From positions 1 through 32,980 of the forward strand of contig JALZUP010000361.1 in the NCBI GenBank assembly GCA_023301505.1: a stretch of DNA of 32,980 bases, read 5' to 3'. The stretch is from Robiginitomaculum sp. (GTDB taxonomy: Bacteria > Pseudomonadota > Alphaproteobacteria > Caulobacterales > Maricaulaceae). The notes below the pieces were generated by a model. It saw only the letters and a list, made by a program, of their open reading frames with translations. It was not told the DNA's origin and made no database searches. Below are positions 22,806-32,980 of the stretch, piece by piece. Each line of letters starts with the position of its first letter. The stretch's first letter is position 1. A program made the translations under genes and the position numbers.

Positions 22806-22820
22806 TTAATCTTTAGTTAA
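22806..22820 (-). promoter_or_regulatory. CtrA-type site (TTAA-N7-TTAA)
   Basis: TTAA at 22806-22809 and TTAA at 22817-22820 are separated by seven bases (TCTTTAG), matching the Caulobacter CtrA consensus. It lies between smr and the small exported protein, upstream of the latter. The match is exact, but such short AT-rich motifs can occur by chance. Confidence 0.4.
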
Positions 22821-22859: not shown

Positions 22860-23465
22860 TTATCTGGGCTTTTTCAAAAACACATAATAAGCCCCGCTTC
22901 CTCCATGTTTAATATGAGCGCTAGCATAACGCGCCACCATTGATCGCAATTGAGGCGAGGCGAGCCAAAGCGGTAAATTTCGGCGCAAAACACCGCCTCC
23001 GCTGGCGCGCTGAGACAAGCTTCCTTTTCCTGTCACAACTAAAATACAGCTCTGACCCTGATTAAACCCCGCCTTTAAGGCGCGGCAAAGCTGACCATAA
23101 GCTTGGTCTTGGGTCAAATCATGCAAATCAACTTTGCGGTCTATTGAGATTTTCCCTCGGCGCGTTTTTTTATCTTGCGCAATTTGCGGCGCGTTTTGGC
23201 CGCTATTAACAGATCCGGATTTTGCAAAGCTATAAAGAGGCGGCGCTTTTATCCGTGGATTTTGCACCGCAGAGCCCGCAGAAATAGGCCTAATCGGCAT
23301 AGTCTTTTTAAGCGCCCCCTCAGAAGAGCGCTTCTTTGAGGGTAAAGATAGCGAGCTAGTCTCATAGCTATTGACCGTGCGCGCCACCCGCCGCCAAATA
23401 GCCGCGTCTTCTGCGCTTAGCTGTTTTGACTTATCATTTGATTTATCAAAAGGGCGAGAGGGCAT
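22860..23465 (-). CDS. Smr (MutS2 C-terminal type) domain protein
   Basis: This 201-residue protein has a basic, disordered N-terminal half and a C-terminal Smr domain (about residues 105-200). The domain shows VDLHDLTQDQAYGQL, the glycine-rich ILVVTGKGSL and GVLRRNLPLWLASP, and ends AHIKHGGSGAYYVFLKK. Smr domains nick DNA or act on RNA; stand-alone alphaproteobacterial members near mltA are mostly uncharacterised. The usual DLHG is DLHD here. Its ATG lies one base after the mltA stop, so it is the last gene of timA-mltA-smr. The nuclease role is inferred from the family only. Confidence 0.9.
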   Translation of the reverse strand: MPSRPFDKSNDKSKQLSAEDAAIWRRVARTVNSYETSSLSLPSKKRSSEGALKKTMPIRPISAGSAVQNPRIKAPPLYSFAKSGSVNSGQNAPQIAQDKKTRRGKISIDRKVDLHDLTQDQAYGQLCRALKAGFNQGQSCILVVTGKGSLSQRASGGGVLRRNLPLWLASPQLRSMVARYASAHIKHGGSGAYYVFLKKPR

Positions 23466-28895: not shown

Positions 28896-29524
28896 GACAA
28901 TAATATGCCCCGAATTCGCAAATAATCCAAGACGGGCAATAAGGGCAATCCAAGAATAGAGAAAAAATCACCGTCAACATGCTCAAAAAGCTGCGCGCCG
29001 CGCCCTTCAAATTTATAGCCGCCCACAGAGCTTAAGAGCTCATCGCCTTCGGTCTCAATATAATTGTCTAAAAAATCTTGCGAAAATTCGCGCACTTTTA
29101 AGCTTGTTTTTGAGATATGGCGCCACTGAGCGGCCCCATCTTGGGCAATTACAACCGCACCAATTAAATTATGCGTTTTGCCCCGCATGGCCCAAAGCCG
29201 CTCGCGTGCCTCGCTCACCGATTTAGGTTTATCAAAAAGCTGGCCATCCATGACCATGATCTGATCCGCGCCAATTACAAAACCGGGCACGGTGCGGCTA
29301 ACCCGCAGCGCTTTTGCCTCTGCCAGGGCATCAGCAATATCGCGCATAAGCGCGCCCTGCTCGAGCATAGTTTCTTTAATGGCCGCCTCATCAATTGGCC
29401 GCACCATAACGCTATAATCAAGGCCTGCCCCGTCAAGAATTTGGCGGCGTATCGCGCTCCCAGACGCTAATATTATCGGCTTTAAGGGGGGCTCGTTCTG
29501 ATGGGCCATTTCTGCATCACCCAT
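28892..29524 (-). CDS. maf: Maf-like nucleotide pyrophosphatase
   Basis: This protein of about 210 residues hydrolyses non-canonical or modified nucleoside triphosphates. Maf signatures are PIILASGSAIRRQIL near the start, VIGADQIMVMDGQLFDKPKS, LSSVGGYKFEGRGAQLF and FFSILGLPLLPVLDYL. The frame is open to 29617, but the extra residues would overlap the PPSR gene; the ATG at 29524 (8-bp overlap with the PPSR stop) or at 29509 is more likely. Its stop overlaps the aroE start. The GADQI form (rather than GADTV) is common in alphaproteobacterial Maf-2-type proteins. The exact substrate is unknown. Confidence 0.92.
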   Translation of the reverse strand: MGDAEMAHQNEPPLKPIILASGSAIRRQILDGAGLDYSVMVRPIDEAAIKETMLEQGALMRDIADALAEAKALRVSRTVPGFVIGADQIMVMDGQLFDKPKSVSEARERLWAMRGKTHNLIGAVVIAQDGAAQWRHISKTSLKVREFSQDFLDNYIETEGDELLSSVGGYKFEGRGAQLFEHVDGDFFSILGLPLLPVLDYLRIRGILLS

Positions 29525-30362
29525 TTTTATAGTCCTGATAAATAGTAATGATGCGCGCCGCGGTCTCTTCAATAGAGCGGCGCGAGACATCCACCGTTCG
29601 CCAGCTATTTCTAACAAAAAGCCGTCTCGCTAAAACCATTTCAGCCCGAACCTCCTCCTCATCCGCATAGCTGCTATAGCTCTCTTCGCTTAAGGAGGAT
29701 AAACGCTGCTCTCTTATTTGAGCAATGCGCACAGGCGCTGCAACCAGCCCAATGATTAAGGGCCCGCCCGGCTTTTTGCCAAGTTCAAAAAACCAGTCTG
29801 GCAAAACCGTATTTGGGACAAGCGGGATATTTCCCGCCTTTATCCCGCGATTGGCCAGATAAATACAGGTCGGCGTTTTTGATGTTCGGCTCACGCCCAG
29901 TAAAATAATATCAGCCTTTTTAAGCCCATTTAAATTTTGGCCATCATCATGGGCCATCGCATAATCAAGCGCTTCAATACGGCCATAATAAGCCGCGTCC
30001 AAATTACGCTGCGCGCCAACTTCCGATGACATAGGCGCGCCCAGATAGCGGCCCAATGTCGCCAATGTCGGGTCCAAAACAGAAACAGCTTGAATATTTA
30101 GCTCCGCGCAGCGCGCTTCTAACATGCGGCGGCGCTCTGAATTAACCAATGTATAAAGTACAAGTCCGGGGCGGGCTTCAATTTGTTCTAAAACGCGCTC
30201 CATTTGAGCGGGCGTTCTGACAAGAGCATGTAAATGCTCAAGCGCGGTTGCATGAGAAAATTGCGCGCAAGAGGCCTTCATAACAGCAACAAGTGTCTCC
30301 CCCGTTGAATCAGAGACAAGATGCACATGAAAATAGATTGAAATATTTTGCTTCGGGTCCAC
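29517..30362 (-). CDS. PPDK/PEP synthase regulatory kinase-pyrophosphorylase (DUF299)
   Basis: This 281-residue protein belongs to the PPSR/PDRP family (Pfam Kinase-PPPase). Members inactivate pyruvate phosphate dikinase or PEP synthase by ADP-dependent phosphorylation and reactivate it by Pi-dependent dephosphorylation. It shows VHLVSDSTGETL, the P-loop-like LLGVSRTSKTPTCIYLANRG, and LVPNTVLPDWFF. The start is GTG at 30362, just two residues before the conserved core and at the edge of the origin region. In Caulobacter the gene beside the origin is a member of the same family. It is the first gene of the minus-strand run leading to dnaQ. Whether the target is PPDK or PEP synthase cannot be told here. 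Confidence 0.93.
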   Translation of the reverse strand: MDPKQNISIYFHVHLVSDSTGETLVAVMKASCAQFSHATALEHLHALVRTPAQMERVLEQIEARPGLVLYTLVNSERRRMLEARCAELNIQAVSVLDPTLATLGRYLGAPMSSEVGAQRNLDAAYYGRIEALDYAMAHDDGQNLNGLKKADIILLGVSRTSKTPTCIYLANRGIKAGNIPLVPNTVLPDWFFELGKKPGGPLIIGLVAAPVRIAQIREQRLSSLSEESYSSYADEEEVRAEMVLARRLFVRNSWRTVDVSRRSIEETAARIITIYQDYKNG

Positions 30363-30495
30363 AAATACTCTTTTCTTATCAAGCCAATATACAGCCCATT
30401 GGCTATAATAATTATGTGCATAGCGCGGGACTTAACCCCAGTTCAATCTTTAATAGAGCTGCTTTTGTGAATTGCGAACATCAATAGCCTAAATT

Positions 30496-30510
30496 TTAAG
30501 GTTTTGTTAA
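30496..30510. promoter_or_regulatory. CtrA-type site 1 in origin
   Basis: TTAA-GGTTTTG-TTAA, an exact TTAA-N7-TTAA. Its right half is part of GTTAAC (30506-30511), which recurs at 30524-30529, 18 bp on. Confidence 0.5.
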
Positions 30511-30569
30511 CATCTGAATAGCTGTTAACGGGCTAATAAAATTTACGGGGATGATATTTACTCAAATAT

Positions 30570-30578
30570 TTATCCACA
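30570..30578 (+). promoter_or_regulatory. DnaA box
   Basis: TTATCCACA is an exact match to the high-affinity DnaA consensus TTATNCACA. It sits centrally in the AT-rich origin gap between CtrA-type site 1 and the half-site ladder. Confidence 0.8.
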
Positions 30579-30680
30579 GAGCTATACATATTTACAGCTT
30601 AGATTTCAAAGTGTTAGATATTTATACAAGAGATGTATCAATTTTAATAAATTAATACAATGTTGATAAAATTTAGCAGA

Positions 30681-30716
30681 TTAAGATTTTCTTAAGATAA
30701 GTTAAAGCTTTCTTAA
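30681..30716. promoter_or_regulatory. CtrA-type half-site ladder in origin
   Basis: TTAA occurs at 30681, 30692, 30702 and 30713, that is, at steps of 11, 10 and 11 bp. The outer pairs are exact TTAA-N7-TTAA sites and the middle pair has N6. All four lie on roughly the same DNA face, which suits cooperative binding of a dimeric response regulator such as CtrA. The ladder lies next to the weak DnaA boxes at 30661 and 30719. Confidence 0.6.
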
Positions 30717-30808
30717 AATTAGCCACAAAGTCACAGGCCCTATCACTATCACTTCCTATAAATAAAGATTAGAAGGGATAAGATTTGGACTAAAAATAGA
30801 GGATAAAT

Positions 30809-31846
30809 GTGACTCGTAAACTTTTGAGCGTGATAAAAAATGAGCCAGCTTGGCAAAAAGGCGATATAGCGCCTATCTGGTTCATGCGTCAGGCAGGACG
30901 GCATTTACCTGAATATTTAGAGCTTAGATCTAAAGCGAAAGACTTTATTGATTTTTGTATGCGCCCAGATATGGCCGCAGAGGCAACCTTACAGCCTATT
31001 AGGCGCTATGATGTTGATGGGGCGATCCTTTTTGCTGATATTTTGCTCATTCCAGGGGCATTAGGACGCAAAGTAGACTTTATTAAAGGAACAGGGCCTG
31101 TATTAGAGCCTATCACGCCAGATGATGTTTCAAAACTCACCTTAGAGGGCGCGGCTGATCGGTTATCTAATATTTACGAGACTGTTTCGCGGGTTAAATC
31201 TGAATTAGGAGCGGATAAAACACTTATCGGCTTTTGCGGCGCGCCGTGGACAGTAGCTACCTATATGATTGAAGGGCGCGGCACTCCGACTAAAGAAGCA
31301 GCGAAACGATTTGCTTATGAGCACCCACAAATTATGGATGAGCTTTTATCTATCCTTGCAATAAGCAGCGCGGCATATATGGCGCAGCAAGCAAAGGCTG
31401 GGGCAGATGTTTTGAAAATATTTGAAAGCTGGGCAGAAGGCCTCTCCCCTTATCAATTTGAGCGCTTTGTGATTAAGCCGACCCAAGAGATGATTACCCA
31501 TATTCGGGCAGCGGGTATAGATGTGCCTATTATGGGCTTTCCGCGCGGGGCGGGTCTTAATGCGGTTAGCTACGCGCATAAAGTTAGCGTGCAGGCCATG
31601 GCCGTGGGAACGGATACATCTCTTGCTGATTTTCGCGCCCATATTCCAAAGGGTATGGTTCTTCAGGGTAATTTAGATCCTTTATTATTGCGTATGGGCG
31701 GACAAGCTTTGATTGACGGGGTTGATAGAGTGTTAGAAGATGCGGCAAGCGGGCCGCATATTTTTAATCTTGGTCATGGCGTTGCACCTGATGTACAGAT
31801 AGAGTCAGTACATGCTGTGATTAACCGTATTCGGAGACGATCTTAA
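30809..31846 (+). CDS. hemE: Uroporphyrinogen decarboxylase
   Basis: This 345-residue enzyme decarboxylates uroporphyrinogen III to coproporphyrinogen III in heme synthesis. Signatures are IWFMRQAGRHLPEYLELR near the N terminus, the catalytic Asp in AILFADILLIP, GFCGAPWTVATYMIEG, and FNLGHGVAPDVQIESV near the end. The start is GTG with AGAGGA close upstream, and a GACTC (CcrM-type) site overlaps codons 1-3. It flanks the probable origin, the same arrangement as in Caulobacter, where hemE transcription is tied to origin control. hemJ, another heme gene, follows 68 bp later. Confidence 0.97.
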   Translation: MTRKLLSVIKNEPAWQKGDIAPIWFMRQAGRHLPEYLELRSKAKDFIDFCMRPDMAAEATLQPIRRYDVDGAILFADILLIPGALGRKVDFIKGTGPVLEPITPDDVSKLTLEGAADRLSNIYETVSRVKSELGADKTLIGFCGAPWTVATYMIEGRGTPTKEAAKRFAYEHPQIMDELLSILAISSAAYMAQQAKAGADVLKIFESWAEGLSPYQFERFVIKPTQEMITHIRAAGIDVPIMGFPRGAGLNAVSYAHKVSVQAMAVGTDTSLADFRAHIPKGMVLQGNLDPLLLRMGGQALIDGVDRVLEDAASGPHIFNLGHGVAPDVQIESVHAVINRIRRRS

Positions 31847-31914: not shown

Positions 31915-32364
31915 ATGAGTGCTGATATGATTTTATGGCTAAAGGCCCTTCATATAATTTCCGTTATGTTTTGGGTCGCGGCTTTGCTGATCTTGCCAAG
32001 ATTTTATGCCTATCATAGTAGCGCCGTACCAGGCGGAGAGCTTGAAGCTAAAATGCTAGTCGCTGAAGAGCGTTTATGCTCCATCATTATGACGCCCGCT
32101 ATGTTTAGCTCGCTTTTATTTGGCGCAGCTTTAATTGGCACGCGCGCGGATCAAATGGGCGGAATTAGCTGGTTGACGATTAAGCTTTTTGCCGTTTTTT
32201 GCTTGTTTTTCTTTCATGGTATGATGTCAGCCGATCGCAAGAAATTTGCCCGCGGAGAGCGTCCGCGGAGCGAGAAAACATATCGCAGGCTTAATGAAGT
32301 CCCGTCCATATTGGTGATTATCATTGTGATAATGGCCCTAGTAGAGCCATTCCCTGTTATTTAA
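31915..32364 (+). CDS. hemJ: HemJ protoporphyrinogen oxidase (UPF0093/CopD-like)
   Basis: This 149-residue integral membrane protein oxidises protoporphyrinogen IX to protoporphyrin IX in organisms lacking HemG and HemY. It shows LKALHIISVMFWVAALLILPRF with the conserved His13 in the first of about four helices, RLCSIIMTPAMF, and the family end RLNEVPSILVIIIVIMALVEPF. AAGGTGA gives a good ribosome site. hemE upstream and rho downstream reproduce the gene order known near alphaproteobacterial origins. The bases around its start (GTGATATTATGAGTG) recur exactly at rho. Confidence 0.94.
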   Translation: MSADMILWLKALHIISVMFWVAALLILPRFYAYHSSAVPGGELEAKMLVAEERLCSIIMTPAMFSSLLFGAALIGTRADQMGGISWLTIKLFAVFCLFFFHGMMSADRKKFARGERPRSEKTYRRLNEVPSILVIIIVIMALVEPFPVI

Positions 32365-32504: not shown

Positions 32505-32980
32505 ATGAGTGACAGCCCAGCTGCGCCTAGCGCTATGACAGATATGAAAACACCCGCTTCAAAAGATAATCCAAAGGCAAATGAAGAGATCAATCTTGAT
32601 GATCTTGAGATGATTAGTCTTGATGATCTAAAAGCAAAAAAGCCAAATGAGCTTATTGCTTTTGCCGAAGCTGTTGGCGTTGAAAATGCGGGATCTATGC
32701 GCAAGCAAGATATTTATTTCCGCGTGCTTAAAGATTTAGCCGAAGAAGAGGTTGAAATTCACGGCGGCGGGGTCTTAGAGGTCTTGCAAGATGGGTTTGG
32801 GTTTTTGCGCGCCCCTGAGGCCAATTATCTAGCCGGCCCTGATGATATTTATGTAAGCCCTAACCAAATTCGCAAATTTGGTCTTCGTACTGGCGATACA
32901 GTATCAGGCGAAATTCGCTCGCCTCAAGAGACAGAGCGTTATTTTGCGCTCACCAAAGTTGTCTCGCAAAATTTCTCAAC
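32505..32980 (+). CDS. rho: Transcription termination factor Rho, 5' part
   Basis: The first 158 codons of rho run to the window edge. After a Pro/Lys/Asp-rich N-terminal extension of about 45 residues, the Rho N-terminal domain begins ([37 protein letters not shown]). It is followed by the cold-shock-like RNA-binding domain ([43 protein letters not shown]). The hexameric ATPase domain lies beyond the window. Many alphaproteobacterial Rho proteins start closer to this domain, so the extension with [13 protein letters not shown] repeats is slightly unusual. It is 140 bp downstream of hemJ. Confidence 0.95.

Follow-up and report, generated by a model that had tools for sequence, protein, structure and literature searches.

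Does the gene-free stretch between ppsR and hemE hold the chromosomal replication origin of the genome it comes from? The window analysed here (32,980 bp) spans contig C361 in full; the assembly, from a Robiginitomaculum-like member of the Caulobacterales, has 474 contigs and 3.84 Mb. Judged by hemE, its closest named relatives are uncultured Robiginitomaculum assemblies. In this organism, the gap at 30363–30808 almost certainly serves as the origin of chromosome replication (oriC, Cori-type). The origin type is already known, and the gap is a further example of it. An origin can thus be placed for an uncultured lineage in which box counting alone says little.

The gap between ppsR and hemE and its motifs

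The gap has a length of 446 bp and an AT content of 70%, compared with ~50% across the window. It separates two divergent genes. The left boundary is ppsR (DUF299/COG1806; 29517–30362, minus strand; PF03618, 5.3e-84) and the right boundary is hemE (30809–31846, plus strand; PF01208, 6e-100). The gene-free, AT-rich gap between divergent genes was found as the original prediction had described it. The predicted flanks were also recovered by family searches, with ppsR-maf-aroE-coaE-dnaQ on one side and hemE-hemJ-rho on the other. Of the latter, hemJ (UPF0093) is located at 31915–32364 (plus strand) and the 5' part of rho at 32505–32980 (plus strand), where the contig end cuts the gene. The order by family searches was yifB ... 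ampG-mutS-glnD-murJ-trpS ... hslU ... secB ... dnaQ-coaE-aroE-maf-ppsR | hemE-hemJ-rho. Divergent hemE-ppsR gaps of 342–516 bp were present in 29 other relatives.

The motif search identified three DnaA boxes with at most one mismatch in the gap, where 0.12 were expected. One was exact (TTATCCACA, 30570–30578, plus strand), and two had a single mismatch (TTATCAACA, 30661–30669, minus strand; TTAGCCACA, 30719–30727, plus strand). The last of these is the first of two tandem box-like repeats. Exact CtrA-type sites (TTAA-N7-TTAA) were also found three times, compared with 0.13 expected: TTAAGGTTTTGTTAA at 30496–30510, TTAAGATTTTCTTAA at 30681–30695 and TTAAAGCTTTCTTAA at 30702–30716, all on the plus strand and the last at a conserved position. 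The expected values came from dinucleotide shuffles of the gap itself (300 each), and the observed counts were reached in 0 of 300. The exact DnaA box, the weaker boxes on both strands and the three exact TTAA-N7-TTAA sites had all been named in the original prediction. A CtrA orthologue is encoded in the genome and shares 85% identity with the CtrA query sequence from C. crescentus.

The gap contained no CcrM sites (GANTC) and no TGATCCACA G-boxes, the DnaA-site class of the C. crescentus Cori. The IHF motif WATCAANNNNTTR matched at one mismatch only, in a gap that is AT-rich. No Rfam families were found in the window. Clusters of three TTAA were considered as a marker of the gap and rejected, as such clusters are not specific to it genome-wide.

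Two minor observations were made in passing. The sole other exact TTAA-N7-TTAA of the window (22806–22820) is intergenic, near an SmrA-like gene (22860–23465, minus strand), and may belong to a CtrA-regulated promoter. Moreover, a second protein with a weak DnaA-domain match was seen elsewhere in the genome (G000:C124:2832-3137, L002; a 335 aa frame), which could be HdaA or another DnaA-like protein.

Skew, dnaA and the parABS neighbourhood

The window adjoins another contig of the assembly, C16, as we infer from rho. C16 was placed beside the window because the gene is split between both contigs: the 5' part is at 32505–32980 of the window and the 3' part at L173:13402 to about 14049–14074 of C16. 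With respect to the rho profile, the window contig ends at about position 121 of 415 and C16 carries the gene from position 201. Hence, ~240 bp, or ~80 codons of rho, are missing between them; no exact overlap was found between the window end and C16.

Over both contigs, the minimum of the cumulative GC skew was at 30448, within the gap. The third-position skew left of the gap was −0.16 for plus-strand genes and −0.15 for minus-strand genes; right of the gap, it was +0.09 and +0.20, respectively. As genes on either strand show this flip in third-position skew, gene orientation and coding bias are not the cause of the switch. The hand-sampled lines on which a skew switch had first been proposed were weak evidence, and the claim now stands on the minimum and the third-position flip, with the minimum of these two contigs inside the gap and not elsewhere.

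The chromosome scale was covered by G006, a member of this family whose chromosome is complete, with skew computed on 2.0 Mb, i.e. 58% of that chromosome. The raw cumulative-skew minimum was rejected as a locator there, since the skew of the two arms does not add up to zero and places the minimum at the record start; for this reason, the switch was located by a two-level circular fit. The fit gave a GC-skew switch at 3.12–3.15 Mb and an AT-skew switch at 3.12–3.17 Mb; hemE is located at 3.150 Mb, and the skew switches back near 1.46 Mb. When the origin was set at dnaA (the record start), the fit was worse, with twice the log-likelihood difference being 9.7 and 22.2. Within these 2.0 Mb of G006, no DnaA-box cluster was as dense as that of the hemE gap (five boxes; the runner-up had three).

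We checked for a denser DnaA-box cluster near dnaA and found none. The dnaA contig of this genome, which covers ~350 bp upstream of dnaA, showed two lone boxes and no cluster, and no cluster was found around dnaA in a second relative (G005). In relatives with long contigs, dnaA was located 28 kb to ~0.7 Mb from hemE or on another contig.

Family searches found mnmE, mnmG, parA and parB on C16, and rsmG was recognised from its translation. The window itself contained no parS; the sites are on C16, three exact and one with a single mismatch. The distance from the gap to the parS sites was ~5.4–7.8 kb, including the missing piece of ~240 bp. Exact parS sites were found in 12 of 13 relatives with long contigs, and each has sites 4–20 kb from hemE. 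Similar arrangements are published: in C. crescentus, parS is within 8 kb of Cori (PMC4468827), and in Hyphomonas neptunium, the marker-frequency peak is near hemE, with parAB ~7 kb from hemE and two parS upstream of parAB (PMC6650430). A CtrA ChIP peak adjoins the origin of H. neptunium (PMC7200025). By these published features, the gap resembles the H. neptunium origin in its hemE setting, the nearby parAB/parS and CtrA at the origin. The difference is that the H. neptunium origin was located experimentally and the gap by its sequence.

Two other explanations place initiation outside the gap. The dnaA-dnaN setting is the commonest among bacterial origins, and the origin could be near dnaA, with hemE merely near the skew switch. 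This is extremely improbable, as the box cluster is absent on the dnaA contig here (~350 bp upstream covered) and around dnaA in G005, and the skew of G006 has no switch at dnaA. The gap could also be the divergent ppsR/hemE promoter region only, where CtrA and DnaA act as transcription factors. Every divergent pair needs promoters, both proteins are transcription regulators, and weak sigma-70-like matches are present within the gap. However, these matches were at the chance level (3 found, 2.9 expected), and the skew minimum in the gap, the chromosome-scale switch of G006 at hemE, the parS linkage in relatives and the marker frequency of H. neptunium (PMC6650430) all argue against a promoter-only region, which we consider very improbable. 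The interpretation as an origin, as originally proposed, is supported by the gene order, the AT-rich gap, the motifs above chance, the skew minimum, parABS at 5–8 kb, the chromosome-scale skew of G006 and, for a relative in the family, the marker-frequency and ChIP results in the literature.

A conserved block on the hemE side

The most conserved part of the gap had been left out of the original prediction. It is a block of ~86 bp at 30680–30765 (plus strand). In an alignment of 16 gaps from the clade of the window, the mean column identity was 0.61 in 30681–30762 and 0.34 elsewhere. A profile of the block, built from 15 genomes, gave one strong match per genome in 18 genomes, each between hemE and ppsR only (E 3.5e-19 here); three of the 18 (G010, G016 and G029) had been left out of the building. 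We propose from the sequence that this block is the unwinding core of the origin, shut by CtrA~P. It could instead, or additionally, be the hemE promoter. No prior description of the core was found in openly readable main texts.

The layout of the block was, in order, TTAA elements, the CtrA-type site at 30702–30716, the tandem box-like repeats at 30719–30735, a GGCC, a trio-like tract and an AT tract. In 14 of 16 genomes, a CtrA-type site with no more than one mismatch occupies this position, whereas shuffles of each gap gave such a site in ≤6% of cases; the sister genomes G003 and G004 had two to three mismatches there. The array of CtrA-type sites (30681–30716) stops 2 bp short of the box at 30719–30727. 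The second repeat, AAAGTCACA (30727–30735, plus strand), is weak and was seen in the alignment; it may also bind DnaA. Relatives have another TCACA or TCCACA a few bases after the first CACA. The repeats are followed by the GC-rich spacer GGCC (30736–30739, plus strand), the trio-like tract CTATCACTATCACTTCCT (30740–30757, plus strand) and the AT tract TATAAATAAAGATTAG (30757–30772, plus strand), for which a role in melting is suggested.

The trio-like tract begins 12 bp past the box at 30719–30727, which falls within the published peak of 10–13 bp for the box-to-trio spacing (PMC8287927). Its core reads CTA TCA CTA TCA CTT, and the B. subtilis trios on the same strand read CTACTATTACTTCTACTA (PMC10201434). 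The bias for T depended on the phase: in the gaps of the clade, the T frequency in the tract was 0.69 in the trio-middle phase and 0.22 and 0.27 in the other phases. In 12 more distant gaps, the signal was weak (0.43 in the trio-middle phase; 0.12 and 0.32 in the others). Trios 1, 3 and 5 were invariant in the clade, and trios 2 and 4 were mostly non-matching, usually without the critical base.

The published BUS rule expects a box and then, within 16 bp, at least three consecutive 3'-NAN-5' trios (NTN on the other strand) (PMC8287927). In its strict form, it did not match at the core tract (30740–30757), and the matches elsewhere in the window were at the chance level. The rule was rejected as a discriminator: ~half of the shuffled gaps of this composition passed it by chance, as did 24–76% of random gaps matched in composition to the AT-rich relatives. 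Because the rule failed at the core and is often passed by chance, the assignment was left to layout and conservation, which suggest that the tract may consist of DnaA trios.

Proposed control by CtrA and comparison with other origins

In the proposed mechanism, DnaA would fill the spread boxes and, last, the tandem box-like repeats (30719–30735). A DnaA filament would then form across the trio-like tract (30740–30757), and the AT tract would melt toward hemE. CtrA~P on the array at 30681–30716 would keep DnaA off the repeats, so that the trio-like and AT tracts stay closed; after removal of CtrA, DnaA would open the region beside hemE. ParABS would segregate the duplicated origin from parS ~5–8 kb away. 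Repression of Cori by CtrA~P is established for C. crescentus, where DnaA exclusion is the simplest mechanism (PMC4468827). The array provides a concrete, testable claim on the site where CtrA may block initiation, and the block a candidate unwinding site for hemE-type alphaproteobacterial origins.

The C. crescentus Cori is located between hemE and COG1806/ppsR, is AT-rich and has several CtrA sites and DnaA boxes (PMC1914354; PMC4468827). The gap shares these boundaries, the AT-richness, several TTAA-N7-TTAA sites and DnaA boxes, and parS nearby; unlike Cori, it has no TGATCCACA G-box. The position of the CtrA sites also differed: they are at the hemE-side core here and mostly 220–390 bp before hemE in the Caulobacteraceae gaps examined. 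These gaps showed an GACAGGCCCTAC element after a spacer and an TTATCCACG-like box, 80–112 bp before hemE. Because this box-spacer-GACAGGCCCTAC element is also present in Caulobacteraceae, the hemE-side core is perhaps older than the CtrA wiring. According to a review, the origins of marine Caulobacter probably came to use CtrA through independent evolution (PMC4468827); the placement of the CtrA sites agrees with this statement. The conserved CtrA site beside the core in the clade of the window may be new. Tentatively, and with somewhat more doubt than confidence, we suggest that in this Caulobacterales clade CtrA acts directly on the unwinding core, with its conserved site abutting the tandem DnaA boxes, that constraint on the trio tract recurs at every other trio (a 6-bp period) and that CtrA control of the origin arose or was moved independently, over a hemE-side core that is older and shared. 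Whether marine CtrA use evolved independently can be tested directly through where the CtrA site sits with respect to the core.

The block resembles the BUS of the B. subtilis oriC in its tandem boxes, GC spacer, CTA-starting tract, trio-middle T bias, AT tract and distance of 12 bp. It differs in that trios 2 and 4 of the clade usually lack the critical base and in the failure of the strict rule in the core. This failure also speaks for a further explanation, namely that the gap is the origin and the block (30680–30765) mainly a CtrA-controlled hemE promoter, with unwinding elsewhere, e.g. beside the box at 30570. The block stops ~45 bp short of hemE, and the C. crescentus Cori has promoter activity, perhaps CtrA-controlled (PMC4468827). 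However, the tandem repeats, GC spacer, trio-phase T bias and AT tract resemble characterised unwinding regions (PMC8287927; PMC10316083), and the Caulobacteraceae gaps have the similar box and GACAGGCCCTAC element. We consider a mainly promoter role of the block rather unlikely and prefer the unwinding core.

The origin of Rickettsia prowazekii, a distant relative, is located at the boundary of hemE and COG1806 and contains sites for CtrA and IHF (PMC1914354). By this published description, it resembles the gap in its boundary and CtrA sites; it is shorter (384 bp). CtrA sites were nearly absent in the Rhizobiales-type gaps examined. In the equivalent position, the ~120 bp next to hemE, most gaps of this type (among L023–L082) showed a different, strongly conserved element, CAACAGACTCTAAGAATCAGAA, which may be the core of Rhizobiales-type origins. 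One record (L029), titled Bacillus subtilis SK6B4, has a Brucella-type, Rhizobiales-like hemE and gap and looks mislabelled or contaminated.
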